64,000 nucleotides of DNA from an uncultured Gammaproteobacteria bacterium. Lineage in GTDB: Bacteria > Pseudomonadota > Gammaproteobacteria > Eutrophobiales > Eutrophobiaceae. Positions 40,944-61,297 of the stretch are shown here, piece by piece (position 1 is the stretch's first letter; each line of letters opens with the position of its first letter). The DNA is taken from contig OY282354.1 in the NCBI GenBank assembly GCA_958295485.1, forward strand, positions 3,372,042 to 3,436,041, given 5' to 3'. The notes beneath the pieces are model-generated. The model had not been told where the DNA came from, made no database searches, and worked only from the letters and a program-made list of their open reading frames with translations. The position numbers and the translations under genes were made by a program.

Positions 40944-43900
40944 TCAGGGGGTGAGCGTCTGCGCCACACGGAACCCGATGACGTAGCTACGGCTATTGGA
41001 AGTGCCCCTGAGGCGGAGTGCGGCGCGAAGGTACCACGGATCGCTGTTCCAGGAACCGCCGCGCAAAACGCGACTGCCGCAGTCCCCGCTTGTCCAGGCA
41101 CTCCCATCACTCGGCGCGCCCGCATAACTCTCGTTCCAGCAGTCCTGTACCCACTCCCATACGTTGCCGTGCATGTCATGCAAACCAAAACTGTTCGGCT
41201 GATAGCTCCCCACCTCGGCAGTACGCTCGCCAATGCCATCCAAACACGACACATTACGCCAAGGAAGGCCAGTACTCCCGTCCTCATGATTCGCATACTG
41301 GCAAAGTTGGGATTCGTCATCTCCGAAGTGATACTTTGTCGTGCTGCCCGACCGCGCCGCATACTCCCATTCCGCCTCGCTCGGCAATCGGTAACGCATG
41401 CCCGTCCCGGACGATAACCATTCCACGTACGCCACTGCGTCATCCCAACTCACACACACCACAGGATGCGTATCCGACTGATTAAACCCCGGATTATTCC
41501 ACCTCACAAACGAATTCACTGTCCATTCACTACCATCCCACACATAACAACCTCCGCCACGCTCCGCCGTCGTGCGGTAACCCGCCTGCGTCACAAAACG
41601 GCCAAATTCACCACGCGTCACCTCGTATTTCGATAGCGCAAACGGCTGGGCTATCGTCACTTCATGTACTGGTGTCTCGCCATCCCCACAATCTCTCCCG
41701 GACACGCAACCCATGCGAAACCGGCCGGCCGGAATTACTACCATCTCCGGGACCTGACCACCCGAACCCAACTCATCCCTGAACGACTGTCCCGGCGTTA
41801 ACTCCGCCAACTTGATTTCCGTCTGCAAACGCCGCGCCTCCGCCGCATGACGTCCCGCAGGGTAGGACCGCAAGTATTCCCCATATGCCGCCACTGTCCC
41901 CGCCGACCGCGCCCGGGCATACGCCCCATCATCCGCTGCAATCAACGCCTGCCGGCGGCCGCGCGCCTCGTCAGCATAAATCCCGCTCGGATACTGCGTC
42001 AGATAGCCTTCGAAATCCATTGAACTCTTACTGCCCTTGACCGACTCCCACAGCTCGAACTCGGACCCCAAAGCTAACAGCGTCTTCGCCGATTCCGCAT
42101 CCAGGTAGCCTGTTGCCGCTTCACCTTGAGACGCCTGCCAATCCCTCAGCGCACTACGCGTGCCCTCACCAAACAAACCGTCCGCCAACCCCGGATTAAA
42201 ACCCGCCGCCGTCAATCCCTGCTGAACCTGTCGTCGCTCCGCCCGGGTCAACCCCAAACCTGCCTCCACCGCAGCACCGTCGGACGCCACTGGTTCTGGC
42301 GTGACCGTTTCCACTGCCAGCGTCCGCGCCACACGAAACCCGTTGAGGTTGAGGCGGCTATCGGTGGAGTTACTGGCGCGGTACGCGGTACGGAGGAACC
42401 ACGGTCTGCTGCCCCAGGAGCCGCCGCGCAAAACGCGATTGCCACAGTCCCCCCGCTTCCAAGCGCTCCCATCACTAGGGGCACCCACATAACTATCGTT
42501 CCAGCAGTCCGCCACCCACTCCCACACGTTGCCGTGCATGTCATGCAGACCAAAACTGTTCGGCTGATAGCTCCCCACCCCAGCAGTACTCAAGCCAACG
42601 CCATCCGAACACGACTCATTACTCCCGGAAAAGTTAGTACTCCTGTCCAAATGATTCGCATACCGGCAAAGTTGGGATTCATCATTGCCAAAGTGATACT
42701 TTGTCGTGCTGCCCGACCGCGCCGCATATTCCCATTCCGCCTCGCCCGGCAATCGGTAGGGCTTGCCCGTCTCGGACGATAACCATTCCACGTACGCCAC
42801 TGCGTCATCCCAACTCACACACACCACAGGATGCGTATCCGACTGATTAAACCCCGGATTATTCCACCTCGCAGACGACTTCTCTGTCACGTTACCATCC
42901 CACACGTAACAACCTCCGCCACGCTCCGCCGTCGTGCGGTAACCGGCCTGCGCCACAAAACGTTCAAATTCGCCACGCGTCACCTCGTATTTCGATAGCG
43001 CAAACGGCTGGGCTATTCTCACTTCGTGCACCGGTTTCTCCCAATCATGACAATCTCTCCCGGACACGCAACCCATGCGAAACCGGCCGGCTGGGAGCGC
43101 CACTATCTCCGGTCCCTGACCACCCGAAGCCAACTCATCTCTGAACGATTGTCCGGGCGTTAACTCGGCCAACTTGACTTCCGTCTGCAAATGTCGCGCC
43201 TCCGCCGCATGACGCCCCGCAGGATAGGACTGCAAGTATTCCCCATACGCCGCCACCGTCCCCGCCGACCGCGCCCGGGCATACGCCCCATCATCTGCCG
43301 CAATCAACGCCTGACGTGTTTGTACAAACCAATACACACCGCCCCCTACCAACGCCAATGTCACCACCCCCGCCAACATAACAGCAAACCTGGGCGACCT
43401 CCCCGCTTTGCTGCCCTGAGGAATGGCGGCACCGGTTCTACGGCGCTTTTCTCCCTGCACGGCTGCCAACCCGTCCGCTTCGCCCGATAACGCCGCCTGC
43501 CATTGGGCGATGCTCTGCGGGCGGTTTTCCTCGTCCACCGCAATCGCCCAATCAATCGCCCGCAACAAACCCTCATCGTAACGACCTCTCCCTGCTGCCA
43601 CCGCCGACGCCCAATCCCCGCCGCCCTTGCGTTGCCCCCGCGCCCGCGTCACCGCATCCAGCAAATCACCGTCACTCACGCCACTGATACAACGGTACGC
43701 CACCATCCCCAACGCATATATATCACTCCACACCCCCACGTCGTCCGCCTTGCTATCGTATTGCTCTATCGGCGCATACCCCGGCGTCAGTATCGATGTC
43801 ACCGAGCGGGACCGCTGACCCACCGCCTGCCGGGCCGCCCCGAAGTCCAACAACACCACACTGCCGTCTTCATCCCGCAACATCAGGTTGCCCGGCTTGA

Positions 43901-44438: not shown

Positions 44439-44487
44439 CTAAAGAGGTAACGATTCACGGGGTGAGCGTCCGCGCCACACGGAACCC
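44439..44487 (-). other. IMH-like conserved segment 3' of the kinase 5 VR (type example)
   Basis: From the GGG codon of G-F-R-V-A through the stop codon and 15 bases beyond, the coding strand is nearly identical in all six kinases. The post-coding part TGAATCGTTACCTCTTTA is invariant in kinases 1-5 and has one change in kinase 6, although the DNA that follows differs between copies. In DGRs such a segment is the initiation-of-mutagenic-homing site where cDNA priming occurs. Confidence 0.65.
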
Positions 44488-47052
44488 GAAGCTGAAGAAG
44501 CGGGCAGAGGTGTTATTGATACGGCGGTTCGCGGAACGGAGGCTCCACGGAACGACACTGAACCAGGAACCGCCGCGCAAAATGCGACTGCCGCAGTCCC
44601 CGCTTATCCAGGCGCTCCCATCACTCGGCGCGCCTGCATAACTGACGTTCCAGCAGTCCGCCACCCACTCCCACACGTTGCCGTGCATGTCATACAGACC
44701 AAAATCATTTGGCCGGTAGCTCCCAACCTCGGCAGTACCTATGCCAACGCCATCCGAACACGACTCATTACGCCAGGAAAAGTCAGTACTCCTGTCCGCA
44801 TGATTCGCATACCGGCAAAGTTGGGATTCGTCGTCCCCGAAGTGATACTTTGTCGTGCTGCCCGACCGCGACGCATATTCCCATTCCGCCTCGCTCGGCA
44901 ATCGGTAACGCGCGCCCGTCTTCCTCGACAGCCACTGCACGTATCCCATCGCATCTTTCCACGAAACTTCAATCACCGGCCGGTTGCCCCGGCCCCAGCC
45001 CCAGTCATCCGGCTCGTAACCGCCACAGCCCCCATCAGCTACGCAGGCATCCCACTGGGCGAACGTCACTTCGTATTTCGACATGGCAAACGGCTGGGCT
45101 ATCCTCACTTCATGCACCAGTGTCTCGTCATCATCACAATCTCTCCCGGACACGCAGCCCATGCGAAACCGGCCGGCCGGAAGCACTACCATCTCCGGGC
45201 CCTGACCACCCGAACCCAACTCATCCCTGAACGACTGCCCGGGCCTTAACTCGGTCAACCTGACTTCCGCCTGCAAACGCTGCGCCTCCGCCGCATGACG
45301 TCCCGCAGGGTAGGACTGCAAGTATTCCCTATACGCCGCCACTGTCGCCGCCGACTGTGCCCGGGCATACGCCCCATCATCCGCCGTAATCAACGCCTGC
45401 TGCCGGCTGCGCGCCTCGGCAGCGTGAGTACCGTCCGGATACTGCATCAGGTAGCCTTCGAAATCCGTCGGGTTCTGACTATCCTTGACCGACTCCCACA
45501 ACTCGCGCGCCGCCGCTAAACGCTCCGCTTTGGCCTCCGCCGCCGCAATCAACGCCTGCCGCCGGCTGCGCGCCTCGGCAGCGTGAGTCCCGTCCGGATA
45601 CTGCGTCAGGTAGCCTTCAAAGTCCGCCGGGTTCTGACTATCCTTGACCGACTCCCACAACTCGCGCGCCGCCGCCAAACGTTCCGCTTTGGCCTCCGCC
45701 ACCGCAATTAACGCCTGCCGCCGGTTGCGCGCCTCAGCAGCGTAAGTCCCGTCCGGATACTGCGTCAGGTAGCCTTCAAAGTCCGCCGGGTTCTGACTAT
45801 CCTTGACTGACTCCCACAACTCGCGCGCCGCCGCCAAACGCTCCGCTTTGGCCTCCGCTGCCGCAATTAACGCCTGCCGCCAGTTGCGCGCCTCGTCCGC
45901 ATGACGCCCCGCAGGATACCCCTGCAAATACTCCTCCCACGACTCCACCGTCCCCGCCGACCGCGCCCGGGCATACGCCTCATCATCCGCACGTGTTTGT
46001 ACAAACCAATACGCGCCGAACGCCAATGTCAACGCTACCACCCCCGCCAACGCCCACCTAACAGCGAACCGGGGCGATCTCTCCGCTTTGCTGTCCCGAG
46101 GAATAGCAGCCGACACCGCGCCTTCCCTCTGGACGGCTGCCGACCCGTCCACCTCGCCCGATAACGCCGCCTGCCATTGGGCCACGCCCTGCGGCCGGTC
46201 TTCCTCGTTTACCGCCACCGCCCAATCAATCGCCCGCAATAAGCTCTCAGCGTAACGACCGCGCCCTACCGCCACCGCCGACGCCCAATCTCCGCCCCCC
46301 TTGCGTTGGTCCCCCGAACGCGTCACCGCATCCGGCAACTGCCCGTCCCGCAACCCACTCACGCAACGATACGCCACCATCCCCAACGCATAGATGTCAC
46401 TCCACGGCCCCACGTCCTCCACCCGCATACCATACTGCTCCACCGGCGCATACCCCGGCGTCAGTATTGATGTCACCGAGCGGGACCGCTGACCCACCGC
46501 CTGCCGGGCCGCCCCGAAGTCCAACAACACCACACTGCCGTCTTCATCGCGCAACATCAGGTTGCCCGGCTTGACGTCACGATGCACATAGCCCGCCTCG
46601 TGCACTACCGCCAAGCCCCCCAACACTTCCGCCAACAGCCGGTGCAACTCAACCTCCGGCAGCGTCCCCCGCCGGTCAAGCAAATCGCCCAAGGTCTCCC
46701 CCTCAATATACTCCAGCACCAGGTAGGCCGTGCCGTTGGCCTCGAAGAACCGATAGACCTTGTTCAAGTGCGGGTGATCGAAGCGCGCCAAGGTGCGCGC
46801 CTCGTCCAGGAACCGGGTCAAGCCCCAATGGTAGTCCTGCGCCTGCGTCCCCGAATGGGGTACCACCGTGCGCGTCCCGGTGCGGGTGGCAAACTCACTC
46901 GGCAGGTATTCCTTGATGGCCACCACCTTATTCAAGTGCGTGTCCTCAGCCCGGTAGGTGATGCCGAAGCCCCCGGCGCCCAGCACCGAGTGCAGCCGGT
47001 ATTCCTCAAGCAGCGTGCCTGACGGCAAGGCGTGAATGTGATCCATACTCAT
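44455..47052 (-). CDS. Diversified receptor Ser/Thr kinase 5 (atypical FGE N-half)
   Basis: 865 residues, the shortest of the six. Kinase domain as in kinase 6; membrane helix W-A-L-A-G-V-V-A-L-T-L-A-F-G-A-Y-W-F-V at about 330-350; no peptidoglycan-binding-like domain; five stalk repeats, three of them near-identical 53-residue units; one FGE/CLec domain. The first half of that domain differs from all other copies: M-S-K-Y-E-V-T-F-A-Q-W-D-A-C-V-A-D-G-G-C replaces the T-R-G-E-F-G-R-F-V-A-Q version, so the ectodomain is a recombinant. Variable window at 831-855, with one extra codon before the Pro. It follows avd copy 2 by 30 bases. Confidence 0.92.
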   Translation of the reverse strand: MSMDHIHALPSGTLLEEYRLHSVLGAGGFGITYRAEDTHLNKVVAIKEYLPSEFATRTGTRTVVPHSGTQAQDYHWGLTRFLDEARTLARFDHPHLNKVYRFFEANGTAYLVLEYIEGETLGDLLDRRGTLPEVELHRLLAEVLGGLAVVHEAGYVHRDVKPGNLMLRDEDGSVVLLDFGAARQAVGQRSRSVTSILTPGYAPVEQYGMRVEDVGPWSDIYALGMVAYRCVSGLRDGQLPDAVTRSGDQRKGGGDWASAVAVGRGRYAESLLRAIDWAVAVNEEDRPQGVAQWQAALSGEVDGSAAVQREGAVSAAIPRDSKAERSPRFAVRWALAGVVALTLAFGAYWFVQTRADDEAYARARSAGTVESWEEYLQGYPAGRHADEARNWRQALIAAAEAKAERLAAARELWESVKDSQNPADFEGYLTQYPDGTYAAEARNRRQALIAVAEAKAERLAAARELWESVKDSQNPADFEGYLTQYPDGTHAAEARSRRQALIAAAEAKAERLAAARELWESVKDSQNPTDFEGYLMQYPDGTHAAEARSRQQALITADDGAYARAQSAATVAAYREYLQSYPAGRHAAEAQRLQAEVRLTELRPGQSFRDELGSGGQGPEMVVLPAGRFRMGCVSGRDCDDDETLVHEVRIAQPFAMSKYEVTFAQWDACVADGGCGGYEPDDWGWGRGNRPVIEVSWKDAMGYVQWLSRKTGARYRLPSEAEWEYASRSGSTTKYHFGDDESQLCRYANHADRSTDFSWRNESCSDGVGIGTAEVGSYRPNDFGLYDMHGNVWEWVADCWNVSYAGAPSDGSAWISGDCGSRILRGGSWFSVVPWSLRSANRRINNTSARFFSFGFRVARTLTP
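44488..44562 (-). other. Variable region (VR) of kinase 5
   Basis: 25 codons: F-S-V-V-P-W-S-L-R, S-A-N-R-R-I-N-N, T-S-A-R-F-F-S-F. One codon longer than most copies before the Pro. The Asn in A-N-R and the N-N pair are AAC/AAT, close to what an unmutated template would give. Confidence 0.8.
45410..45890 (-). repeat. Tandem 159-bp repeats in the kinase 5 stalk
   Basis: Three near-identical in-frame units encode E-L-W-E-S-V-K-D-S-Q-N-P, then D-F-E-G-Y-L-x-Q-Y-P-D-G-T, followed by a helix rich in A-E-A-K-A-E-R-L-A-A-A-R. The near identity points to recent unequal crossing-over. Confidence 0.85.
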
Positions 47053-47082: not shown

Positions 47083-47403
47083 TCACTTATTGCTATGGTC
47101 GAGACACTGCAAGTCCCGCGCCAGTCGGCAGAGAAACCGGAGCTTTTCCAGGCCCAGGTTGGCGCGGGTGAGATAATCACCGCGGCGCTTGGTGCAGGTG
47201 GCTTCAATCAAGCGTTCCAAAACGTCTAATGCGGTTGCCTGAATGCGGTCGCCAAGGAGGAATTTCCGGCTACGGGGAAAGCGTTCGACGACGGGCGCCA
47301 GCCAGACGATGAAACGATAGTGCGCCTCCAGCGCCGCCCCGGTGGCGCGGGCGTGGTCCACAGGGACAACCGGGCGCCTGTCGGACTGCTTATCCGTCTT
47401 CAT
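47083..47403 (-). CDS. avd: DGR accessory variability protein Avd, copy 2
   Basis: 106 residues of the four-helix-bundle Avd family: R-F-I-V-W-L-A-P-V-V-E-R-F-P-R-S-R-K-F-L-L-G-D-R-I, A-L-D-V-L-E-R-L-I-E-A, and R-A-N-L-G-L-E-K-L-R-F-L-C-R-L-A-R-D-L. In studied DGRs this basic pentameric protein binds the reverse transcriptase and template RNA and is required for mutagenic retrohoming. It lies 99 bases downstream of kinase 4 and just before kinase 5, replacing the intergenic spacer. It differs from copy 1 at about seven residues and carries a Cys where copy 1 has Tyr at position 69. No reverse transcriptase gene follows it. Confidence 0.9.
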   Translation of the reverse strand: MKTDKQSDRRPVVPVDHARATGAALEAHYRFIVWLAPVVERFPRSRKFLLGDRIQATALDVLERLIEATCTKRRGDYLTRANLGLEKLRFLCRLARDLQCLDHSNK

Positions 47404-47447: not shown

Positions 47448-47470
47448 CCAAGGGGGCGTAGCCCTCTTGA
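47448..47470 (-). other. Degenerate hairpin 3' of kinase 4 VR
   Basis: Same CCAAGGGGGC arm as the two perfect hairpins at 50759 and 57543, but the opposite arm has GCCCTCTTGA, leaving a G-T pair and one terminal mismatch. Lies 32 bases after the kinase 4 stop and 45 bases before the avd start. Confidence 0.7.
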
Positions 47471-47501: not shown

Positions 47502-50483
47502 TCATGGGGTAAACGTCCGCGCCACGCGAAACCCGATGCCGCTGCTGCGGTACACGGTGGTGAGCCTGCCGCGGAGCGCGGCCCGGAGGCCCCTCGGTTC
47601 GCTGCCCCAGGAGCCGTCGCGCAAAACGCGACTGCCGCAGTCCCCTCGCTTCCAAGCGCTCCCATCACTAGGGGCACCCACATAACTATCGTTCCAGCAG
47701 TCCTGTACCCACTCAAACACGTTGCCGTGCATGTCATATAGACCAAAACTGTTCGGCTGATAGCTCCCAACCCCGGCAGTAAGCTCAACGCCATCCGAAC
47801 ACAACTCATTACGCCTACGCCAGCGAACATAATAAGCACTCTCGTCCGCATGATTCGCATACCGGCAAAGTTGGGATTCGTCGTCCCCGAAGTGATACTT
47901 TGTCGTGCTGCCCGACCGCGCCGCATATTCCCATTCCGCCTCGCTCGGCAACCGGTAACGCACGCCCGTCTCGGATGATAACCATTCCACGTACGCTACT
48001 GCGTCATCCCAACTCACACACACCACAGGATGCGTGTCCGGCTGATTAAACCCCGGATTATTCCACCTCGCAGACGACTTCAATGTCAATCTACTACCCC
48101 ACTCCATACCCAACACGAAACAGCCTCCGCCACGCTCCGCCGCCGTGCGGTAACCGGCCTGCGCCACAAAACGGCCAAATTCGCCCCGCGTCACCTCGTA
48201 TTTCGACAGCGCAAACGGTCGAGATAACCACACGTTATGTACCGGCGTCTCGTCATCATCACAATCTCTCCCGGACACGCAACCCATGCGAAACCGGCCG
48301 GCCGGAATTTTCACCATCTCCGGGCCCTGACCACCCGAAGCCAACTCATCCTTGAACGATTGTCCGGGCCTTAATTCGGCCAACCTGACTTCCGTCTGCA
48401 AACGCCGCGCCTCCGCCGCATGACGCCCCGCAGGGTAGGACTGCAAGTATTCCCCATACGCCGCCACCGTCCCCGCCGACCGTGCCCGGGCATACGCCTC
48501 ATCATCCAACGCCTGCTGCTGCCGGCTGCGCGCCTCGTCAGCGTGAGTCCCGTCCGGATACTGCGTCAGATAACCTTCGAAATCCGCCGGGTTCTGACTA
48601 TCCTTGACTGACTCCCACAATTCGCGCGCCGCCGCCAAACGCTTTGCTTTGGCCTCCGCCGCCGCAATCAACGCCTGACGCCGGCTACGCGCCTTATCCG
48701 CATGACGCCCCGCAGGATGACCCTGCAAATACTCCTCCAACGACGCCACCGACCGCGCCCGGGCATACGCCTCATCATCCAACGCCTCCTGCTGCCGGCT
48801 GCGCGCCTCGTCCACATGACCGCCCGCAGGATAGGACTGCAAGTATTCCCTATACGCCACCACCGTCCCCGTCGACTGCGCCCGGGCATACGCCGCATCA
48901 TCCGCCGCAATCAACGCCTGACGCCGGCTGTGTGCCTCGTCAGCGTGAGTCCCGTCCGAATACTGGGACAGGTAGCCTTCAAAGTCCGCCGGGTTCTGAC
49001 TATCCTTGACCAACTCCCACTCCGCTTTGGCCTCCGCCGCCGCCATCAACGCCTGTCGCCGGCTGCGCGCCTCGTCAGCGTAAATCCCGCTCGGATACTG
49101 CCTCAGATAGCCTTCGAAATCCTCTGGACTCTCACTGCCCTTGACCGACTCCCACAGCTCGAACTCGGACCCCAAAGCCAACAGCGTCCTCGCCGATTCC
49201 GCATCCAGGTAGCCTGTCTCCACCTCATCTTGAGACGCCTGCCATTCCCTCAGCGCACTACGCGTACCCTCGCCAAACAAACCATCCACCGACCCCGGAT
49301 GAAAACCCGCCGCCGTCAACCCTTGCTGAACCCGCTGCCGCTCCGCTCGGGCCAACTCCAACGCCGCCTCCACTGCCAAGCCTGCCTCGGCAGTATCCGG
49401 ACGTGACTGGTTTTGTACAAACCAATACGCGCCGAACGCCAATGTCAACGCCACCACCCCTGCCAACATAACAGCGAACCTGGGCGACTTCCCCGCTTTT
49501 CTGTCTTGAGGAATAGCAGTTGGCACCGATGACGGCGCCGGTTCTACGACGCCTTTCCCCTGCACGGCTGCTAACCCGTCCGCTTCGCCCGATAACGCCG
49601 CCTGCCATTGGGCTACACCCTGCGGGCGGTCTTCCTCGTTTACCGCCACCGCCCAATCAATCGCCCGCAACAAGGCTTCATCGTAACGACCTCTCCCTAC
49701 CGCCACCGCCGACGCCCAATCCACAACCCCCTTACGTTGGTCCCCTGAGCGCGTCACCGCATCCGGCAACTGCCCGTCCCGCAACCCACTTACGCAACGA
49801 TACGCCACCATCCCCAACGCATATATATCACTCCACACCCCCACGTCGTCCGTCTTGCTACCGTATTGCTCTATCGGCGCATACCCCGGTGTCAGTATCG
49901 ACGTCACCGAGCGGGACCGCTGGCCCACCGCCTGCCGGGCCGCCCCAAAGTCCAACAACACCGCACTGCCGTCTTCATCCCGCAACATCAGGTTGCCCGG
50001 CTTGACGTCACGATGCACGTAGCCCGCCTCGTGCACTACCGCCAAACCCCCCAACACTTCCGCCAACAGCCGGCGCAACTCAACCTCCGGCAATGTCCCG
50101 CGCCGGTCCAGCAAGTCGCCCAAGGTCTCCCCCTCAATGTACTCCAGCACCAGGTAGGCCGTGCCGTTGGCCTCGAAGAAACGATAGACCTTGTTCAAGT
50201 GCGGATGGTCAAACCGCGCCAGGGCGCGCGCCTCGTCCAGGAACCGGGTTAAGCCCCAGTGGTAGTCCTGCGCTTGCGTCCCCGAATGGGGTACCACCGT
50301 GCGCGTCTCGGTGCGGGTGGCAAACTCACTCGGCAGGTATTCCTTGATGGCCACCACCTTATTCAGGTGCGTGTCCTCAGCCCGGTAGGTGATGCCGAAG
50401 CCCCCGGCGCCCAGCACCGAGTGCAGCCGGTATTCCTCAAGCAGCGTACCCGACGGCAGGGCGTGAATGTGATCCATACTCAT
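47502..50483 (-). CDS. Diversified receptor Ser/Thr kinase 4
   Basis: 993 residues. Kinase and membrane helix as in the paralogues (helix A-V-M-L-A-G-V-V-A-L-T-L-A-F-G-A-Y-W-F at about 339-357), then a peptidoglycan-binding-like domain (V-Q-Q-G-L-T-A-A-G-F-H-P-G-S, about 390-450), six stalk repeats and one FGE/CLec domain. Its variable window is residues 960-983. The framework has R-D-G-S-W instead of R-G-G-S-W, and the end reads A-R-T-F-T-P instead of A-R-T-L-T-P. The FGE loop before the variable region carries V-R-W-R-R-R-N-E, longer than in other copies. The start overlaps a 14-codon ORF by TAATG. Followed by a degenerate hairpin and avd copy 2. Confidence 0.92.
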   Translation of the reverse strand: MSMDHIHALPSGTLLEEYRLHSVLGAGGFGITYRAEDTHLNKVVAIKEYLPSEFATRTETRTVVPHSGTQAQDYHWGLTRFLDEARALARFDHPHLNKVYRFFEANGTAYLVLEYIEGETLGDLLDRRGTLPEVELRRLLAEVLGGLAVVHEAGYVHRDVKPGNLMLRDEDGSAVLLDFGAARQAVGQRSRSVTSILTPGYAPIEQYGSKTDDVGVWSDIYALGMVAYRCVSGLRDGQLPDAVTRSGDQRKGVVDWASAVAVGRGRYDEALLRAIDWAVAVNEEDRPQGVAQWQAALSGEADGLAAVQGKGVVEPAPSSVPTAIPQDRKAGKSPRFAVMLAGVVALTLAFGAYWFVQNQSRPDTAEAGLAVEAALELARAERQRVQQGLTAAGFHPGSVDGLFGEGTRSALREWQASQDEVETGYLDAESARTLLALGSEFELWESVKGSESPEDFEGYLRQYPSGIYADEARSRRQALMAAAEAKAEWELVKDSQNPADFEGYLSQYSDGTHADEAHSRRQALIAADDAAYARAQSTGTVVAYREYLQSYPAGGHVDEARSRQQEALDDEAYARARSVASLEEYLQGHPAGRHADKARSRRQALIAAAEAKAKRLAAARELWESVKDSQNPADFEGYLTQYPDGTHADEARSRQQQALDDEAYARARSAGTVAAYGEYLQSYPAGRHAAEARRLQTEVRLAELRPGQSFKDELASGGQGPEMVKIPAGRFRMGCVSGRDCDDDETPVHNVWLSRPFALSKYEVTRGEFGRFVAQAGYRTAAERGGGCFVLGMEWGSRLTLKSSARWNNPGFNQPDTHPVVCVSWDDAVAYVEWLSSETGVRYRLPSEAEWEYAARSGSTTKYHFGDDESQLCRYANHADESAYYVRWRRRNELCSDGVELTAGVGSYQPNSFGLYDMHGNVFEWVQDCWNDSYVGAPSDGSAWKRGDCGSRVLRDGSWGSEPRGLRAALRGRLTTVYRSSGIGFRVARTFTP
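47535..47606 (-). other. Variable region (VR) of kinase 4
   Basis: 24 codons: G-S-E-P-R-G-L-R, A-A-L-R-G-R-L-T, T-V-Y-R-S-S-G-I. Variable codons GGC, AGC, GGC, CTC, GGC, CTC, TAC, AGC, AGC, GGC and ATC all end in C. Confidence 0.8.
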
Positions 50484-50814: not shown

Positions 50815-53800
50815 TCACGGGGTGAGCGTCCGCGCCACGCGAAACCCGAAGTAGCTGCTGTGGGGGTCGAAGGTGAGCCAGACGCGGTACGCGGAACGGA
50901 GGAACGGCGGTGAGTGGTACCAGGAGCCGCCGCGCAAAATGCGTTTGCCACAGTCCCCTCGCTCCCAAGCGCTCCCATCACTCGGCGCGCCTGCATAACC
51001 CCCGTTCCAGTTCCAGCAGTCCTGTACCCACTCCCCTACGTTGCCGTGCATGTCATACAGACCAAAACTGTTCGGCTGATAGCTCCCCACCCCGGCAGTA
51101 CTCAAGCCAACGCCATCCGAACACGACTCACTACTGTTAATACTCCTGTCTCTATAATTCGCATACCGACAAAGTTGAGATTCGTCATCTCCGAAGTGAT
51201 ACTTTGTCGTCGTCCCAGCCCGCGCCGCATACTCCCATTCCGCCTCGCTCGGCAAGCGGTAACGTACGCCCGTCTCGGACGATAACCATTTCACGTATGC
51301 CACTGCGTCATCCCAACTCACACACACCACAGGATGCGCATCCGACTGATTAAACCCCGGATTATTCCACCTCGCAGACGACTTCTCTGTCACGTCACTA
51401 CCATCCCATATTGCACAACCTCTGCCACGCTCCACCGTCGTGCGGTAATCGGCCTGCGCCACAAAACGTCCAAATTCGCCACGCGTTACCTCGTATTTCG
51501 ATAGCGCAAACGGTTCCGCGATGCTCACTTCATGCACCGGTTTCTCCCAATCATAACAATCTCTTCCGGACACGCAGCCCATGCGAAACCGACCGGCCGG
51601 AATTACCACCATCTCCGGCCCCTGGCCGCCTGAACCCAGGTCATCCTTGAACAACCGTCCGGGATCCAACTCGGAACCTAAAGCCAGCAGTGTTTTCGCC
51701 GATTCCGCATCCAGGTAGCCCGTCGCCGCTTCACCTCGAGACGCCTGCCATCCCCTCAGCGCACTACGCGTACCCTCACCAAACAAACCGTCCGCCAACC
51801 CCGGATTAAAACCCGCCGCCGTCAATCCCTGCTGAACCCGCCGACGCTCCGCCCGGTCCAACCCCAACGCCGCCTCCACCACCGCCGCGTCGGATGCCGG
51901 CGCTTCCGGCGTGACCGTTTCCACTTCCAGCGTCCGCGCTACACGGAACCCGATGGCAGAGGCGAGGGTGTCGGAGGCGAACACGCCGCTGCGCCTCGCG
52001 GCGCGGAGGTCCCTCGGAACGAAGACCCAAGCGCCGCCGCGCAAACCGCGTTTGCCACAGTCCCCTCGCTCCCAAGCGCTCCCATCACTTGGCGCGCCTA
52101 CATAACTGTCGTTCCAGCAGTCCGCCACCCACTCAGCCACGTTGCCGTGCATGTCATACATACCAAAACCATTTGGCCGGTAGCTCCCCACCCCAGCAGT
52201 ACTCAAGCCAACGCCATCCGAACACGACTCACTACTGTTAATACTCCTGTCTCCATAATTCGCATACCGGCAAAGTTGGGATTCGTCGTCTCCGAAGTGA
52301 TACTTTGTCGTCGTCCCAGCCCGCGCCGCATACTCCCATTCCGCCTCGCTCGGCAAGCGGTAACGCACGCCCGTCTCGGACGATAACCATGCCACGTACG
52401 CCACTGCGTCATCCCAACTCACACACACCACAGGATGCGTATCCGACTGATTAAACTCCAGATTATTCCACCTCGCAGACGACTTCTTTGTGAATTCACT
52501 ACCCTCCAACACGACACAGCCTCCGCTACGCTCCGCCGGTGTGCGGTAACCGGCCTGCGCCACAAAACGTCTAAATTCGCCACGCGTCACCTCGTATTTC
52601 GATATGGCAAACGGCTGGGCTAGCCTCACTTTATGTACCGGCACCTCGTCATCATCACAATCTCTCCCGGACACGCAGCCCATGCGAAACCGGCCGGCCG
52701 GGAGCACCACCATCTCCGGGCCCTGACCACCCGAACCCAACTCATCCCTAAACGACTGCCCGGGCCTTAACTTGGTCAACTGCAAACGGATGCGCGCATC
52801 GTCCGCATGACGCCCCGCAGGATACCCCTGCAGATACGCCTCCCATGACGCCACCGTCCCCGCCGACCGCGCCCGGGCATACGCCTCATCATCCGCACGT
52901 GTTTGTGCAAACCAATACACGCCGCCGCCCACCAACGCCATTGTCAACGCCACCACCCCCGCCAACATAACAGCGAACCTGGGCGACTTCCCCGCTTTTC
53001 TGTCTTGAGGAATAGCAGCCGGCGCCGATGCCAGTTCTACCGCATCTTTACCCTGGACGGCTGCCAACCCGTCCGCCTCGCCCGATAACGCCGCCCGCCA
53101 TTGGGCGATGCTTTGCGGGCGGTCTTCCTCGTTCACCGCAATCGCCCAATCAATCGCCTGCAACAAACCCTCAGCGTAACGACCCCTCCCTACCGCCACC
53201 GCCGTCGCCCAATCCCTGCCGCCCTTGCGTTGCCCCCGCGCCCGCGTCACCGCATCCGGCAAATCACCGTCACCCACGCCACTGATACAACGGTACGCCA
53301 CCATCCCCAGCGCATATATATCACTCCACACCCCCACGTCGTCCGCCTTGCTATCGTATTGCTCTATCGGCGCATAACCCGGCGTCAGTATCGACGTCAC
53401 CGAGCGGGACCGCTGGCCCACCGCCTGCCGGGCCGCCCCGAAGTCCAACAACACCGCACTGCCGTCTTCATCCCGCAACATCAGGTTGCCCGGCTTGACG
53501 TCACGATGCACGTAGCCCGCCTCGTGCACTACCGCCAAGCCCCCCAGCACTTCCGTCAACAACCGGCGCAACTCAACCTCCGGCAATGCCCCCCGCCGGT
53601 CCAGCAAGTCGCCCAAGGTCTCCCCCTCAATGTACTCCAGCACCAGGTAGGCCGTGCCGTTGGCCTCGAAATAGCGGTGAACCTTGTTCAAGTGCGGATG
53701 GTCAAACCGCGCCAGGGCGCGCGCCTCGTCCAGAAACCGGGTCAAGCCCCAATGGTAGTCCTGCGCCTGCGTCCCCGAATGGGGTACCACCGTGCGCGTC

Positions 53801-54052: not shown

Positions 54053-57000
54053 TCACGGGGTGAGCGTCCGCGCCACACGGAACCCGAAGCTGTAGCCACG
54101 GGGGTTATCGGTGACGCCCTGGCCGCGGAACGCGGCGCGGAGGATCTCCGGAGCATAGAGCCAGGAGCCGCCACGCAAAACGTGTCTGCCGCAGTCCCCG
54201 CTTGTCCACGCGCTCCCATTACTGGGGGCACCCGCATAACTGTCATTCCAGCAGTCCTGTACCCACTCGAACACGTTGCCGTGCATGTCATGCAGGCCAA
54301 AACTGTTCGGCTGATAGCTCCCCACCTCGGCAGTGCGCGCGCCAATACCATCCGAACACGACTCATTACTCCCAGAAAAGTTAATACTCCTGTCCGCATG
54401 ATTCGCATACCAGCAAAGTTGGGATTCGTCATCTCCGAAGTGATACTTTGTCGTGCTCCCCGACCGCGCCGCATACTCCCATTCCGCTTCGCTCGGCAAC
54501 CGGTAACGCTTGCCTGTCTCGGACGATAACCATTCCACGTACGCCACTGCGTCATCCCAACTCACGCACACCACAGGATGCGTATCCAACTGATCAAACC
54601 CCGGATTATCCCACCTCGCAGACGACTTCTCTGTGAATTCACTACCATCCCACACGTAACAGCCTCTGCCACGTTCCGCCGTTGTGCGGTAACCGGCTCG
54701 CGCCACAAAACGTCCAAATTCGCCCCGCGTCACCTCGTATTTCGATAGCGCAAACGGCTGGGCTATCCTCACTTCATGCACTGGCATCTCGTTATCCTCG
54801 CAATCTCTCCCGGACACGCAGCCCATGCGAAACCCACCCGCCGGAAGCACCACCATCTCCGGCCCTTGGCCGCCCGAACCCAGCTCATCACTGAATAACT
54901 GCCCGGGCCTTAACTCGGCCAACTTAACTTCCGTCTGCAAACGCCGTGCCTCGTCCGCATGACGTCCCGCAGGATAGGACTGCAAGTATTCTCCATATGT
55001 CGTCACTGTCCCTGCCGACCGCGCCCGGGCATACGCCTCATCATCCGCCGCAATCAACGCCTCCCGTCGCCAGCTGCGCGCCTCGTCAGCGTAAACCCCG
55101 TTCGGATACCTTCGCAGATACGCCCCTAATGACGCCATCGTCCCTACCGACCGCGCCTGGGCATACGCCGTATCATCCGCCGTAATCAACGCCTGACGCC
55201 GGCTGCGCGCCTCGTCAGCGTAAGTCCCGTCCGGATACTGGGACAGGTAACCTTCGAAGTCTGCCAGGTTCTGACTATCCTTGACCGACTCCCACAACTC
55301 GCGCTCCGCCGCCGCAATCAACGCCTGACGCCGGCTACGCGCCTTATCCGCATGACGCCCCGCAGGATGACCCTGCAAATACTCCTCCAACGACTCCATC
55401 GTCCCCACCGACCGCGCCCGGGCATACGCCTCATCATCCAACGCCTCCTGCTGCCGGCTGCGCGCCTTGTCCACATGACCACCCGCAGGATAGGACTGCA
55501 AGTATTCCCCATAAGCCACCACCGTCCCCGTCGACTGCGCCCGGGCATACGCCGCATCATCCGCCGCAATCAACGCCTGACGCCGGCTGTGTGCCTCGTC
55601 AGCGTGAGTCCCGTCCGAATACTGGGACAGGTAGCCTTCAAAGTCCGCCGGGTTCTGACTATCCTTGACCAACTCCCACTCCGCTTTGGCCTCCGCCGCC
55701 GCCATCAACGCCTGTCGCCGGCTGCGCGCCGCGTCAGCGTAAATCCCGCTCGGATACTGCCTCAGATAGCCTTCGAAATCCTCTGGACTGTCACTGCCCT
55801 TGACCGACTCCCACAGCTCGAACTCGGACCCCAAAGCCAACAGCGTCCTCGCCGATTCCGCATCCAGGTAGCCTGTCTCCACCTCATCTTGAGACGCCTG
55901 CCATTCCCTCAGCGCACTACGCGTACCCTCGCCAAACAAACCATCCACCGACCCCGGATGAAAGCCCGCCGCCGTCAACCCTTGCTGAACCCGCTGCCGC
56001 TCCGCTCGGGCCAACTCCAACGCCGCCTCCACTGCCAAGCCTGCCTCGGCAGTATCCGGACGTGGCTGGTTTTGTACAAACCAATACACGCCACCCCCCA
56101 CCAACGCCAATGTCAACGCCACCACCCCCGCCAACATAACAGCGAACCTGGGCGACCTCCCGGCTTTGCTGTCCTGAGGAATAGCAACCGGCGCCGATGT
56201 CGGCTCTGCCGCGCCTTCCCCCTGGACGTATGCCGACCCGTCCACTTCGCCCGATAACGCCGCCTGCCATTGGGCCACGCCCTGCGGGCGGTCTTCCTCG
56301 TTTACCGCCACCGCCCAATCAATCGCCCGCAACAAGCCCTCAGCGTAACGACCTGCCCCTACCGCCACCGTCGATGCCCAATCCCCACCCCCCTTGCGTT
56401 GGTCCCCCGAACGCGTCACCGCATCCGGCAACTGCCCGTCCCGCAACCCACTTACGCAACGATACGCCACCATCCCCAACGCATAAATGTCACTCCATGG
56501 CCCCACGTCCTCCACCCGCATACCATACTGCTCCACCGGCGCATACCCCGGCGTCAGTATCGACGTCACCGAGCGGGACCGCTGGCCCACCGCCTGCCGG
56601 GCCGCGCCGAAGTCCAACAACACCGCACTGCCGTCTTCATCCCGCAACATCAGGTTGCCCGGCTTGACGTCACGATGCACGTAGCCCGCCTCGTGCACTA
56701 CCGCCAAGCCCCCCAACACTTCCGCCAACAGCCGGCGCAACTCAACCTCCGGCAATGTCCCCCGCCGGTCAAGCAAATCGCCCAAGGTCTCCCCCTCAAT
56801 GTACTCCAGCACCAAGTAGGCCGTGCCGTTGGCCTCGAAATAACGGTGAACCTTGTTCAAGTGCGGGTGATCGAAGCGCGCCAAGGTGCGCGCCTCGTCC
56901 AGGAACCGGGTCAAGCCCCAGTGGTAGTCCTGCGCCTGCGTCCCCGAATGGGGTACTACCGTGCGCGTCCCGGTGCGGGTGGCAAACTCACTCGGCAGGT

Positions 57001-57145
57001 ATTCCTTGATGGCCACCACCTTATTCAGATGCGTGTCCTCCGCCCGGTAGGTGATGCCGAAGCCCCCGGCGCCCAGCACCGAGTGCAGCCGGTATTCCTC
57101 AAGCAGCGTGCCCGACGGCAAGGCGTGAATGTGATCCATACTCAT
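54053..57145 (-). CDS. Diversified receptor Ser/Thr kinase 2 (longest stalk)
   Basis: 1030 residues. Kinase domain with Y-A-P-V-E-Q-Y-G-M-R-V-E-D; membrane helix at about 337-357; peptidoglycan-binding-like domain (about 385-450); seven stalk repeats, the largest number in the array; one FGE/CLec domain, variable window 996-1020. Residues before the FGE domain are almost the same as in kinase 4, so the two share a recent common stalk. The ATG overlaps the stop of an upstream short frame (TAATG), which here is continuous with the 3' end of avd copy 1. No hairpin or avd follows; kinase 3 starts 76 bases on. Confidence 0.92.
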   Translation of the reverse strand: MSMDHIHALPSGTLLEEYRLHSVLGAGGFGITYRAEDTHLNKVVAIKEYLPSEFATRTGTRTVVPHSGTQAQDYHWGLTRFLDEARTLARFDHPHLNKVHRYFEANGTAYLVLEYIEGETLGDLLDRRGTLPEVELRRLLAEVLGGLAVVHEAGYVHRDVKPGNLMLRDEDGSAVLLDFGAARQAVGQRSRSVTSILTPGYAPVEQYGMRVEDVGPWSDIYALGMVAYRCVSGLRDGQLPDAVTRSGDQRKGGGDWASTVAVGAGRYAEGLLRAIDWAVAVNEEDRPQGVAQWQAALSGEVDGSAYVQGEGAAEPTSAPVAIPQDSKAGRSPRFAVMLAGVVALTLALVGGGVYWFVQNQPRPDTAEAGLAVEAALELARAERQRVQQGLTAAGFHPGSVDGLFGEGTRSALREWQASQDEVETGYLDAESARTLLALGSEFELWESVKGSDSPEDFEGYLRQYPSGIYADAARSRRQALMAAAEAKAEWELVKDSQNPADFEGYLSQYSDGTHADEAHSRRQALIAADDAAYARAQSTGTVVAYGEYLQSYPAGGHVDKARSRQQEALDDEAYARARSVGTMESLEEYLQGHPAGRHADKARSRRQALIAAAERELWESVKDSQNLADFEGYLSQYPDGTYADEARSRRQALITADDTAYAQARSVGTMASLGAYLRRYPNGVYADEARSWRREALIAADDEAYARARSAGTVTTYGEYLQSYPAGRHADEARRLQTEVKLAELRPGQLFSDELGSGGQGPEMVVLPAGGFRMGCVSGRDCEDNEMPVHEVRIAQPFALSKYEVTRGEFGRFVARAGYRTTAERGRGCYVWDGSEFTEKSSARWDNPGFDQLDTHPVVCVSWDDAVAYVEWLSSETGKRYRLPSEAEWEYAARSGSTTKYHFGDDESQLCWYANHADRSINFSGSNESCSDGIGARTAEVGSYQPNSFGLHDMHGNVFEWVQDCWNDSYAGAPSNGSAWTSGDCGRHVLRGGSWLYAPEILRAAFRGQGVTDNPRGYSFGFRVARTLTP
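54086..54160 (-). other. Variable region (VR) of kinase 2
   Basis: 25 codons: L-Y-A-P-E-I-L-R, A-A-F-R-G-Q-G-V, T-D-N-P-R-G-Y-S-F, one codon longer than most after the Pro. Variable codons CTC, TAT, ATC, TTC, GGC, GGC, AAC, GGC, TAC, AGC, TTC. Confidence 0.8.
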
Positions 57146-57175: not shown

Positions 57176-57496
57176 TCACTTATTGCTATGGTCGAGACAC
57201 CGCAAGTCCCGCGCCAGCCGGCAGAGAAACCGGAGCTTTTCGAGGCCCAGGTTGGCGCGGGTGAGATAATCGCCGCGGCGCTTGGTGTAGGTGGCTTCAA
57301 TCAAGCGTTCCAAAACGTCTAATGCGGTTGCCTGGATACGGTCGCCAAGGAGGAATTTCCGGCTACGGGGAAAGCGTTCGACGACGGGCGCCAGCCAGAC
57401 GATGAAACGAGAGTGCGCTTCCAGCGCCGCCCCGGTGGCGCGGGCGTGGTCCACAGGGACAACCGGGTGCCTGTCGGACTGCTCATTTGTCTTCAT
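57176..57496 (-). CDS. avd: DGR accessory variability protein Avd, copy 1
   Basis: 106 residues, full length, with the same helical motifs as copy 2 (E-R-F-P-R-S-R-K-F-L-L-G-D-R-I; L-G-L-E-K-L-R-F-L-C-R-L-A-R-D-L). It lies 117 bases downstream of kinase 1 after the hairpin and just 30 bases before kinase 2, in the same direction. Strong conservation of both copies, with differences mainly in the N-terminal ten residues, suggests selection for function. The missing partner is the reverse transcriptase. Confidence 0.9.
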   Translation of the reverse strand: MKTNEQSDRHPVVPVDHARATGAALEAHSRFIVWLAPVVERFPRSRKFLLGDRIQATALDVLERLIEATYTKRRGDYLTRANLGLEKLRFLCRLARDLRCLDHSNK

Positions 57497-57542: not shown

Positions 57543-57565
57543 CCAAGGGGGCGTAGCCCCCTTGG
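57543..57565 (-). other. Perfect 10-bp hairpin 3' of kinase 1 VR
   Basis: CCAAGGGGGC and GCCCCCTTGG with a 3-base loop, 49 bases after the kinase 1 stop. The spacer to the stop contains the C19A8 run. Same sequence and place as the hairpins after kinases 3 and 4. Confidence 0.78.
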
Positions 57566-57567
57566 AA

Positions 57568-57594: not shown

Positions 57595-57613
57595 GACGTA
57601 AAGAGGTAACGAT

Positions 57614-60600
57614 TCACGGGGTGAGCGTCCGCGCCACACGAAAGCCGAAGCTGCCGCTGCGGAGATCGGAGGTGAGCCCGTAGCGGTACGCGGCACGGAG
57701 GAACCTTGGATTGAGGCTCCAGGTGCCGCCGCGCAAAACGCGATCGGCGCAGTTCCCGCTTGTCCAGGTGCTCCCATCACTGGGAGCACCCACATAACTG
57801 TCGTTCCAGCAATCCTGTACCCACTCCCGCACGTTGCCGTGCATGTCATACAAACCAAAATCATTTGGCCGGTAACTCCCAACCTCGGCAGTACGCTCGC
57901 CAACGCCATCCGAACATGACTCATTACGCCAGGAAAAATTAGTACTTCTGTCCGCATGATTCGCATACCGGCAAAGTTGGGATTCGTCATCCCCGAAGTG
58001 ATACTTTGTTGCGCTGCCCGACCGCGCCGCATACTCCCATTCCGCCTCGCCCGGCAATCGGTAACGCACACCCGTCTCGGACGATAACCATTCCACGTAT
58101 GCCACTGCGTCATCCCAACTCACACACACCACAGGATGCGTATCCGACTGATTAAATCCCGGATTATTCCACCTCGCAGACGACTTCTCTGTCCACTTAC
58201 TACCATCCCACACGTGACAGCCTCCGCTACGCTCCGCCGTCGTGCGGTAACCGGCCTGCGTCACAAAACGGCCAAATTCACCACGCGTCACCTCGTATTT
58301 CGATAACGCAAACGGCTGGGCTATCCTCACTTCATGCACCGGTTTCTCCCAATCAAAACAATCTCTCCCGGATAAGCAACCCATGCGAAACCGACCTGCA
58401 GGGAGCACCACCATCTCCGGGCCCTTGCCGCCCGAAGCCAACTCATCTTTGAACAACCGTCCAGGCCCCAACTCGGACCCCAAAGCCAGCAGCGTCTTCG
58501 CCGATTCTGCATTCAGGTAGCCCGTCGCCGCCTCATCTCGAGATGCCTGCCAGTCCCTCAGCGCACTACGCGTGCCTTCACCAAACAAACCGTCCGACAA
58601 CCCCGGATTAAAACCCGCCGCCGTCAATCCCTGCTGAACCCGCCGACGCTCCGCCCGGTCCAACCCCAACGCCGCCTCCACCGCCGCCGCGTCGGATGCC
58701 GGCGCTTCCGGCGTGACCGTTTCCACTGCCAGCGTCCGCGCCACACGAAACCCGTAGATGCTGTCGCGGCTATCGGTGGAGAACCAGCCGCGGAACGCGG
58801 AACGGAGGAGCCTCGGAGCGTTGCTCCAGGAACCGCCGCGCAAAACGCGCTTGCCACAGTCCCCTCGCTTCCAAGCACTCCCATCACTAGGGGCACCCAC
58901 ATAACTATCGTTCCAGCAGTCCTGTACCCACTCCCACACGTTGCCATGCATGTCATGCAGACCAAAACTGTTCGGCTGATAGCTCCCAACCTCGGCAGTA
59001 CGCTCGCTAACGCCATCCGAGCACGACTCATTACGCCAGGAAAAGTTAGTACTCCTGTCCGCATGATTCGCATACCGGCAAAGTTGGGATTCGGCGTCCC
59101 CGAAGTGATACTTTGTCCTGCTGCCCGACCGCGCCGCATATTCCCATTCCGCCTCGCCCGGCAATCGGTAGGGCTTGCCCGTCTCGGACGATAACCATTC
59201 CGCGTACGCCACTGCGTCATCCCAACTCACACATACCACAGGATGCGTATCCGACTGATTAAACCCCGGATTATTCCACCTCGCAGACGACTTCTCTGTC
59301 ACTGTACTACCATCCCACACGTAACAACCTCTGCCACGCTCCGCCGTCGTGCGGTAACCGGCCTGCGCCACAAAACGGCCAAATTCGCCCCGCGTCACCT
59401 CGTATTTCGACATGGCAAACGGCTCTGCGATACTCACTTCATGCACTGGCATCTCGTTATCCTCGCAATCCCTCCCGGATACGCAACCCATGCGAAACCG
59501 GCCGGCCGGAAGCACCACCATCTCCGGGCCTTGGCCACCCGAACCCAACTCATCACTGAATGACTGTCCAGGCCTTAAATCGGCCGCTCTGGCTTCCTGC
59601 AAACGCCGCGCCTCGTCCGCATGACGCCCCGCAGGATAGGACTGCAAGTATTCCCCATACGCCGCCACCGTCCCCGCCGACTGTGCCCGGGCATACGCCG
59701 CATCATCAGCCGTAATCAACGCCTGCCGCCGGCTGCGCGCCTCGGCAGCATGAGTCCCGTCCGGATACCGGGACAGGTAGCCTTCAAAGTCCGCCGGGCT
59801 CTCACTGCCCTTGACCGACTCCCACAACTCGAACTCGGACCCCAAATCCAGCAGCGTCTTCGCCGACGCCGCATCCAGGTGGCCCGTCACCGTCTCACCT
59901 CTAGACGCCTGCCAGTCCCTTAGGGCGCTACGCGTGCCCTCGCCAAACAAACCGTCCGCCGACCCCGGCTGAAAGCCTGCCGCGGTCAACCCCTGCTGTA
60001 TCCGCCGCCGCTCCGCCCGGGTCAACCCCAACCCCGTCTCCACCGCAGCGCCGTCGGACGCCGCCGGTTCCGGCGTGGCCGTATCCACTACCGATATCTG
60101 TACTGGCGAATCCGGCTCGGTGGGTTGCCCTTCTCCGGCTGGCTGGTCTGCCGATTGGTCAGTAACCGCAGGGGCAGGTTCCACTGCCAAGTCTGCCTCG
60201 GCAGTATCCGGACGTGGCTGGTTTTGCATAAACCAATACACGCCGCCCCCCACCAACGCCAATAGCGCGACCCCCGCCAGCAACACTGTCAACATGGACG
60301 ATAGCCCTGCCCTGCTATCTTGAGATGTTGGCGCCAGTGACGGGGACGCTGCCGGCTTTGCTGTACTTCTCCCCTTTCCCTGTATATATGCCGTCCCGTC
60401 CGCCTCGCCTGATAATGCCGCCCGCCATTGGGCCACGCCCTGCGGGCGGTCTTCCTCGTTTACCGCCACCGCCCAATCAATCGCCCGCAACAAGCCATCA
60501 GCGTAACGTCCGCTCCCTACCGCCACCGCCGACGCCCAATCCCCGCCCCCCTTGCGTTGATCCCCCGAACGCGTCACCGCATCCGGCAACTGCCCGTCAC

Positions 60601-61297
60601 GCAACCCACTTATGCAACGGTACGCCACCATCCCCAACGCATAAATGTCACTCCACGGCCCCACATCCTCCGCCCGCATGCCATACTGCTCTATCGGCGC
60701 ATACCCCGGCGTCAGTATCGACGTCACCGAGCGGGACCGCTGGCCCACCGCCTGCCGGGCCGCGCCAAAGTCCAACAACACCACGCTACTGTCCGCCGAA
60801 CGCAACATCAGGTTGCCCGGCTTGACGTCACGATGCACGTAGCCCGCCTCGTGCACTACCGCCAAGCCCCCCAGCACTTCCGCCAACAGCCGGCGTAACT
60901 CAACCTCCGGTAATGTCCCCCGCCGGTCAAGCAAGTCGCCCAAGGTCTCCCCCTCAATGTACTCCAGCACCAAGTAGGCCGTGCCGTTGGTCTCGAAATA
61001 ACGGTGAACCTTGTTCAAGTGCGGGTGGTCAAAGCGCGCCAAGGCGCGGGCCTCGTCCAGAAACCGGGTCAAACCCCAGTGGTAGTCCTGCGCCTGCGTC
61101 CCCGAATGGGGTACCACCGTGCGCGTCTCAGTGCGGGTGGCAAACTCACTCGGCAGGTATTCCTTGATGGCCACCACCTTATTCAGGTGCGTGTCCTCCG
61201 CCCGGTAGGTGATGCCGAAGCCCCCGGCGCCCAGCACCGAGTGCAGCCGGTATTCTTCAAGCAGCGTGCCCGACGGCAGGGCGTGAATGTGATCCAT
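57614..61297 (-). CDS. Diversified receptor Ser/Thr kinase 1 (largest; two FGE/CLec domains)
   Basis: 1227 residues, first kinase of the array. It starts at M-D-H-I-H without the M-S of the others, with GAGG 8 bases upstream, 5 bases after the stop of the coiled-coil gene. Kinase 16-295 (Lys45, H-R-D 155-157, D-F-G 176-178); membrane helix L-L-A-G-V-A-L-L-A-L-V-G-G-G-V-Y-W-F near 334-352; a unique Pro/Asp-rich linker; peptidoglycan-binding-like domain; two stalk repeats; FGE/CLec 1 (variable window 825-848); second peptidoglycan-binding-like domain; FGE/CLec 2 (variable window 1194-1217). As the promoter-proximal copy it links the array to the FHA/protease genes. Confidence 0.92.
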   Translation of the reverse strand: MDHIHALPSGTLLEEYRLHSVLGAGGFGITYRAEDTHLNKVVAIKEYLPSEFATRTETRTVVPHSGTQAQDYHWGLTRFLDEARALARFDHPHLNKVHRYFETNGTAYLVLEYIEGETLGDLLDRRGTLPEVELRRLLAEVLGGLAVVHEAGYVHRDVKPGNLMLRSADSSVVLLDFGAARQAVGQRSRSVTSILTPGYAPIEQYGMRAEDVGPWSDIYALGMVAYRCISGLRDGQLPDAVTRSGDQRKGGGDWASAVAVGSGRYADGLLRAIDWAVAVNEEDRPQGVAQWRAALSGEADGTAYIQGKGRSTAKPAASPSLAPTSQDSRAGLSSMLTVLLAGVALLALVGGGVYWFMQNQPRPDTAEADLAVEPAPAVTDQSADQPAGEGQPTEPDSPVQISVVDTATPEPAASDGAAVETGLGLTRAERRRIQQGLTAAGFQPGSADGLFGEGTRSALRDWQASRGETVTGHLDAASAKTLLDLGSEFELWESVKGSESPADFEGYLSRYPDGTHAAEARSRRQALITADDAAYARAQSAGTVAAYGEYLQSYPAGRHADEARRLQEARAADLRPGQSFSDELGSGGQGPEMVVLPAGRFRMGCVSGRDCEDNEMPVHEVSIAEPFAMSKYEVTRGEFGRFVAQAGYRTTAERGRGCYVWDGSTVTEKSSARWNNPGFNQSDTHPVVCVSWDDAVAYAEWLSSETGKPYRLPGEAEWEYAARSGSRTKYHFGDAESQLCRYANHADRSTNFSWRNESCSDGVSERTAEVGSYQPNSFGLHDMHGNVWEWVQDCWNDSYVGAPSDGSAWKRGDCGKRVLRGGSWSNAPRLLRSAFRGWFSTDSRDSIYGFRVARTLAVETVTPEAPASDAAAVEAALGLDRAERRRVQQGLTAAGFNPGLSDGLFGEGTRSALRDWQASRDEAATGYLNAESAKTLLALGSELGPGRLFKDELASGGKGPEMVVLPAGRFRMGCLSGRDCFDWEKPVHEVRIAQPFALSKYEVTRGEFGRFVTQAGYRTTAERSGGCHVWDGSKWTEKSSARWNNPGFNQSDTHPVVCVSWDDAVAYVEWLSSETGVRYRLPGEAEWEYAARSGSATKYHFGDDESQLCRYANHADRSTNFSWRNESCSDGVGERTAEVGSYRPNDFGLYDMHGNVREWVQDCWNDSYVGAPSDGSTWTSGNCADRVLRGGTWSLNPRFLRAAYRYGLTSDLRSGSFGFRVARTLTP
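57647..57718 (-). other. Variable region (VR) of kinase 1, terminal
   Basis: 24 codons: S-L-N-P-R-F-L-R, A-A-Y-R-Y-G-L-T, S-D-L-R-S-G-S-F, preceded by G-G-T-W (ACC) where others have G-G-S-W. Variable codons AGC, CTC, AAT, TTC, TAC, TAC, CTC, CTC, AGC, GGC, AGC, TTC. Confidence 0.8.
58754..58825 (-). other. Internal VR-like region of kinase 1
   Basis: 24 codons: S-N-A-P-R-L-L-R, S-A-F-R-G-W-F-S, T-D-S-R-D-S-I-Y, close to the framework; codons AGC, AAC, CTC, TTC, GGC, TTC, GAC, AGC, ATC, TAC. Confidence 0.7.

Follow-up and report, generated by a model that had tools for sequence, protein, structure and literature searches.

Ser/Thr kinases grafted to a C-terminal C-type-lectin (CLec) domain that is varied by a diversity-generating retroelement (DGR) are known from cyanobacteria, together with variable proteins remote from the element (PMC7517822). 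The cyanobacterial proteins form many dispersed paralogues with an N-terminal Hanks-type kinase, and some of them show remnant homology between template repeat (TR) and variable repeat (VR) with no reverse transcriptase (RT) nearby; the genomes nevertheless keep at least one RT, and most of the variable proteins are predicted to be cytosolic (PMC7517822). Similarly, Thiohalocapsa PB-PSB1 holds numerous targets in one genome, some of them far from an RT; Pkinase is one of the annotated target domains, and there are loci that lack an RT or are pseudogenised. It keeps one complete locus per class, however, and VRs served in trans are identical to the template wherever this has no adenine (PMC10907252). 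Kinases as DGR targets, targets at a distance from the element and degenerate loci without RT are thus already published (PMC7517822; PMC10907252), and the preliminary description of the locus treated here went too far in calling it potentially undescribed. This locus is an array of six kinase genes in a window of 64,000 nucleotides (OY282354.1, here contig C1:3372042-3436041) from the assembly of an uncultured gammaproteobacterium (GCA_958295485.1; 3.74 Mb, 6 contigs, 97.9% complete). Like the cyanobacterial proteins, the array combines kinases with variable CLec-type tips and has no RT nearby. It differs from them in that all six products have a transmembrane (TM) helix, five carry peptidoglycan-binding domains, three bear two VRs each, and no RT or TR is detectable in the genome. 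In contrast to Thiohalocapsa, no complete locus was found and the VR frameworks have diverged. What is new is the scale, and an apparent genus-wide lack of the RT.

We favor the explanation, with a rough probability of 0.68, that a decayed DGR has left behind a frozen repertoire of receptor kinases of its own making, and that the array is not a site of active diversification. The six open reading frames lie in tandem on the minus strand (865-1227 aa, spanning 40944-61297) and are named k1 to k6 in transcription order. All match Pkinase (E 4e-32 to 7e-34) and FGE-sulfatase in Pfam, with one FGE domain in k2, k4 and k5 and two in k1, k3 and k6, nine in total. The VAIK, HRD and DFG motifs are intact in 6/6 kinases, a single TM peak occurs near residues 330-358, and the linker contains the peptidoglycan-binding domains in 5/6, so that the products read as Hanks-type transmembrane Ser/Thr kinases. 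The assignments below rest on Pfam, motifs and TM peak:

57614..61297, minus strand: k1, Ser/Thr kinase-TM-PG_binding-FGE-PG_binding-FGE, 1227 aa (Pkinase, two PG_binding_1 and two FGE-sulfatase matches)
54053..57145, minus strand: k2, kinase-TM-PG_binding-repeats-FGE, 1030 aa
50815..53976, minus strand: k3, kinase-TM-FGE-PG_binding-FGE, 1053 aa
47502..50483, minus strand: k4, kinase-TM-PG_binding-repeats-FGE, 993 aa
44455..47052, minus strand: k5, kinase-TM-repeats-FGE, 865 aa
40944..44378, minus strand: k6, kinase-TM-FGE-PG_binding-FGE, 1144 aa

The FGE domains are matched by profile to Treponema denticola TvpA (PDB 2Y3C, 3e-16) and to the kinase chain of the FGE-domain Ser/Thr kinase structure PDB 5NXL (1e-33). 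TvpA is a surface lipoprotein and the target of an intact DGR; ordinary FGE kinases are not known to have a VR. An AlphaFold model of the FGE domain built on 13 own sequences was discarded (pLDDT 35), and the fold was instead taken from the sequence profiles (Pfam FGE-sulfatase, TvpA), which place each VR at the C-terminal end of a CLec/FGE fold. As targets, these proteins fit among the variable proteins of DGRs. The hypervariable stretch precedes the motif GFRVA, and its variability is far beyond chance. The preliminary description of six tandem kinase-TM-FGE paralogues with nine such stretches is therefore borne out by Pfam, by motif and TM analysis and by codon analysis. The nine VRs, located by match to the inferred template (see below) and by codon alignment, are all open, and their indels keep the frame:

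58731..58849, minus strand: VR k1.1, internal FGE
57614..57742, minus strand: VR k1.2 with gene end
54053..54182, minus strand: VR k2.1 with gene end; one extra codon
51929..52050, minus strand: VR k3.1, internal FGE
50815..50943, minus strand: VR k3.2 with gene end
47502..47630, minus strand: VR k4.1 with gene end
44455..44586, minus strand: VR k5.1 with gene end
42319..42437, minus strand: VR k6.1, internal FGE; nearest to the inferred template (86%)
40944..41072, minus strand: VR k6.2 with gene end

Genome-wide, 16 VR-bearing FGE copies were found. The seven outside k1-k6 are FGE modules of the same family on lipoprotein-like genes: one pair immediately ahead of the window, a tandem trio at C1:2767700-2770936, and a second pair at C1:1281654-1283808. 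An FGE gene at C1:2391088 was rejected as a 17th target, as its variable codons lack the final C. At C1:1593448-1593496 (L038), a 49-base VR tail is followed by a hairpin and an avd start with no FGE gene attached, apparently the remnant of an 18th module. Transposase genes lie near the dispersed FGE loci L039 and L041 and might have moved modules.

That the nine VRs of the window and the seven others are DGR products is strongly supported by three tests. First, across 11 hypervariable codon columns in the 16 copies, pairwise difference is 0.72 at codon position 1 and 0.66 at position 2, but 0.145 at position 3, where 162/176 codons (92%) end in C. For this NNC pattern, the codon usage of the stretch that directly precedes it in these genes would predict 48 such codons (z 20), and that of the other window genes 76/176. 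Second, the differences fall on template adenines. A template was first inferred from the 16 VRs alone and then used as query; real templates were found only afterwards, in the Avd-RT cassettes with the closest Avds (62-73% identity), namely L078, L081, L082 (Accumulibacter), L083 and L084 (Methylocapsa). These cassettes have FGE targets and, unlike the locus here, a full-length Avd, RT and TR together; kinase-array targets were not seen there. Their templates agree almost codon for codon with the inferred one, as in L081: TGG AAC AAC AAA CCG AGG AAC CTC CGG TCG GCG AAT CGC AAC AGG AAC TCC ACC GGG AAC CGG AAC AAC AAC AAC. When this independent template is laid over the VRs, pairs differ at 65% of its A sites vs 17% of other sites, with a p of 2e-13 that is only indicative because the sites are not fully independent. 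The differences thus sit at template adenines; an even spread over codon positions, which the preliminary description had named as refuting its reading, is not what is seen. Third, close duplicates differ where a DGR writes: k1.1 and k1.2 differ at 20/31 A sites vs 1/44 non-A sites, and k1.1 and k6.1 at 58% of A sites, compared to 9% in the flank and 3% at non-A sites. A sites that differ so much more than the flanks of close duplicates imply that rewriting came after duplication. Scrambled A sites beside similar flanks and non-A sites are not the outcome of ordinary selection or gene conversion.

The machinery that should accompany such targets was not found in this assembly. A search of the genome with RVT_1 gave 0 matches, i.e., no RT of any kind. 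A DGR-RT profile built from seven DGR RTs, five of which adjoin the Avds closest to those here, also gave 0 matches at E<=10 with stops read through, although it scored >600 bits in three source genomes and 205-530 bits in nine Avd-positive genomes that had not contributed to it. Against six congeners, the same profile found no credible DGR RT (best 13 bits over 35 residues), and an RVT_1 match in congener G001 was not matched by it. When the VRs and the inferred TR were used to search the whole genome for a template repeat, nothing was recovered but the VRs themselves and a single 3' remnant of a VR. The latter, at C1:1593448, was rejected as a template, since it consists of a VR 3' end, hairpin and avd start in unrelated flanking DNA, and matches at C4:17189 and 17531 are 16-nt and at chance level (E 0.4). 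The whole-genome search that the preliminary description had called for therefore returned neither RT nor template, an outcome that it had listed as counting against its reading.

The avd genes and the hairpins show what else has changed:

57176..57496, minus strand: truncated avd, 106 aa, without the last helix, at a junction with the k2 leader (bAvd E 2e-10, model positions 8-83 of 107)
47083..47403, minus strand: truncated avd, 106 aa, with the same type of junction (bAvd E 2e-10, model positions 8-81 of 107)
50627..50713, minus strand: avd 5' stub, 28 codons and then a stop
57543..57565, minus strand: hairpin CCAAGGGGGC-TAC-GCCCCCTTGG downstream of VR k1.2, in the same place as the hairpins of RT-bearing L078, L081 and L084
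50759..50781, minus strand: hairpin CCAAGGGGGC-TAT-GCCCCCTTGG downstream of VR k3.2
47449..47469, minus strand: imperfect hairpin downstream of VR k4.1

The Avd model was PF22296; PF05635 gave no match anywhere and was uninformative. The two 106-aa products are identical at 100/106 residues, and the one at 47083..47403 has 53% identity to an annotated Prosthecochloris Avd and up to 73% to Avds adjoining an RT. In both genes the frame runs, at an identical junction, into the leader of the kinase gene that follows, and the products are ~25 residues shorter than all close relatives; aligned with relatives and with BPP-1 Avd (4DWL), they lack the last helix. From this early stop and the partial model match, both copies must be considered truncated. 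Hence, while the bAvd family and the stub are confirmed, the two copies formerly described as intact are not, and the short Avds have presumably lost activity. Weak Avd-like matches in four other genomes (G015, G016, G018, G036) adjoin ordinary genes and fall below the family cut-off. Homing in BPP-1 depends on both stem structure and loop sequence of the hairpin (PMC3240598). The hairpins here are similar to those of L078, L081 and L084, but the loops are TAC, TAT or longer vs GAA, GGA or GCA (the GNA type) in the RT-bearing relatives. A hairpin stands in the expected place after 6/11 terminal VRs, is missing after 5/11, and occurs after none of the internal VRs. Terminal VRs that lack a hairpin deviate more from the consensus framework than hairpin-bearing ones do (5.8/44 vs 3.2/44), a weak difference (p 0.014, n=11). 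An avd start also lies 3' of the hairpin in two other places, C1:2767700 and the remnant at C1:1593448, so that the ancestral unit probably had the order target, hairpin, avd, RT that L081 and L084 show. Window positions 57566-57600, which separate VR k1.2 from its hairpin, hold long runs of T and of G; these are much shorter at k3.2 and k4.1, and this is possibly a length-variable site.

Of the genomes searched, 369 from the class and 53 from the family, 11 have a bAvd match above the cut-off; a DGR RT is present in 9/9 bAvd-positive genomes outside the genus, but in 0/2 inside it. On one contig of congener G003, two FGE targets with DGR-type VRs and a full-length Avd precede unrelated sequence that contains a TR-like rump but lacks an RT. 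Truncated TR-like pieces lie beside the same permease gene in G003 (L075, C70, ~7230-8250) and G006 (L074, C390, 3511-3579), likewise without RT, and further NNC-type VRs occur in G004 and on another G003 contig. From these targets, Avd and TR-like rumps it follows that a DGR was once present in the genus. None of its seven sampled genomes (this one and the six congeners) has a DGR RT, each congener absence being weak by itself because those assemblies are fragmented. Of the parts of a complete active DGR, i.e., an RT, a template repeat with A at the variable positions and a full-length Avd, none was detected in this genome. The element is therefore not to be filed as a DGR, but as what a DGR leaves behind.

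Three points weigh against a frozen repertoire. Seven VRs have nearly one framework (1-4/44 differences), and the latest round of rewriting may therefore be fairly young. The two short avd copies have open frames with a dN of 0.026 and a dS of 0.094 between them, and are thus perhaps not plain pseudogenes. Finally, the assembly is not closed, and a missing replicon could therefore hold RT and TR. One alternative is that the DGR is active in trans, with RT, full-length Avd and template(s) on a missing plasmid, phage or assembly gap and some VRs still being rewritten. RT-less loci are served in trans in Thiohalocapsa (PMC10907252) and plasmid-borne DGRs exist; moreover, hairpins persist after part of the terminal VRs, and some VR pairs differ at 1-3/44 non-A sites vs ~20/31 A sites. 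However, no RT was found in 97.9% of the genome and no DGR RT in the six congeners, Avd is truncated, and hairpins are lost in part. In addition, the non-A frameworks of the 16 VRs are all different (median 7/44 differences), which speaks against any recent refreshing from one common template, in contrast to the template-identical VRs served in trans in Thiohalocapsa (PMC10907252). We therefore consider continued activity rather unlikely. The earlier proposal of a DGR receptor system holds as far as the origin of the VRs is concerned, but an active, undescribed system in which an RT elsewhere serves the targets in trans is not supported.

It is more doubtful still that no DGR ever worked in this lineage and that the VR modules came in on mobile DNA, already diversified in some other organism. 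Transposons have been linked to DGR duplication and transfer (PMC10907252), and the transposases near L039 and L041 would suit such a route, but the contrast between k1.1 and k6.1 places rewriting after duplication in this genome, and related VRs, an Avd and TR-like rumps occur in congeners. Divergence of the tips with no DGR at all, through positive selection combined with gene conversion between the paralogues, for which recombination could be seen in the shared 5' and different 3' VR halves of k5.1 and x1.1, is as sole cause already refuted by a third-position C that the same genes otherwise use far less, by the A-site specificity against an independent template, and by the avd fragments adjoining targets. 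The half-sharing of k5.1 (44455-44586) and x1.1 (L042, end of gene 4655-5692), which are >2 Mb apart, includes variable codons (FSVVPW), and could result from partial homing from the 3' end or from recombination.

The favored history runs as follows. An FGE/CLec module ending in a VR was duplicated and joined to kinase-TM receptors and lipoprotein-like genes, yielding the 16 VR copies, and after these duplications, as the footprint shows, the adenines of an AAC-rich template were randomised and written into the VRs. RT and template repeat would then have been lost and avd truncated; their absence is observed in this assembly, and its permanence is presumed. The VRs would since have drifted at non-adenine sites, and would now change only through ordinary mutation and recombination, while selection would keep the frozen repertoire. 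A mean dN/dS of 0.18 places the kinase domains under purifying selection, and together with intact motifs, in-frame VR indels and the PP2C and FHA neighbours this is a sign of continued use. The likeliest present role is that of a set of envelope sensor kinases, each with a distinct periplasmic lectin-fold tip and a cytoplasmic Ser/Thr kinase that would signal with the products of the upstream PP2C and FHA genes; here the topology, the co-transcription and the partners are predicted from domains and gene order. Tentatively, and with rather less confidence than in the decay itself, the genus might have built a receptor family by DGR, discarded RT, template and working Avd, and kept a fixed, selected repertoire of sensor kinases, i.e., domesticated the output of a DGR without the DGR.

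It has been suggested that, after selection of a good variant, the components for diversification are removed (PMC7517822). This suggestion becomes testable with a genome in which a DGR has written 16 different lectin tips, nine of which belong to membrane kinases under purifying selection, while none of the sampled genomes of the genus has a DGR RT. As DGRs are usually found via their RT and studied as live mutation machines, surveys miss target repertoires that lack one; a scan for the adenine footprint can find such orphan targets.

The genes upstream of k1 run in the same direction and encode a MotA/ExbB protein, a 236-aa protein (no match in a Pfam search), a PP2C phosphatase, two trypsin-FHA proteins and a 267-aa protein, the last two genes before k1 being:

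62122..63486, minus strand: trypsin-like protease with FHA domain (Pfam Trypsin_2, FHA)
61303..62106, minus strand: 267-aa protein, 5 bases before k1 (no Pfam match)

G074, the Accumulibacter genome of L082, has two full-length close DGR RTs, each with its own template, and several more distant or partial RTs. A class-mate with a very small genome (G378, 1.5 Mb, one contig) has twelve bAvd genes, most of them nearly identical, and ten DGR-RT matches after bAvd genes, two of which are full-length (389 aa) while most others are ended by TAA at ~100 aa; it appears to hold a mass-amplified, decaying DGR array.

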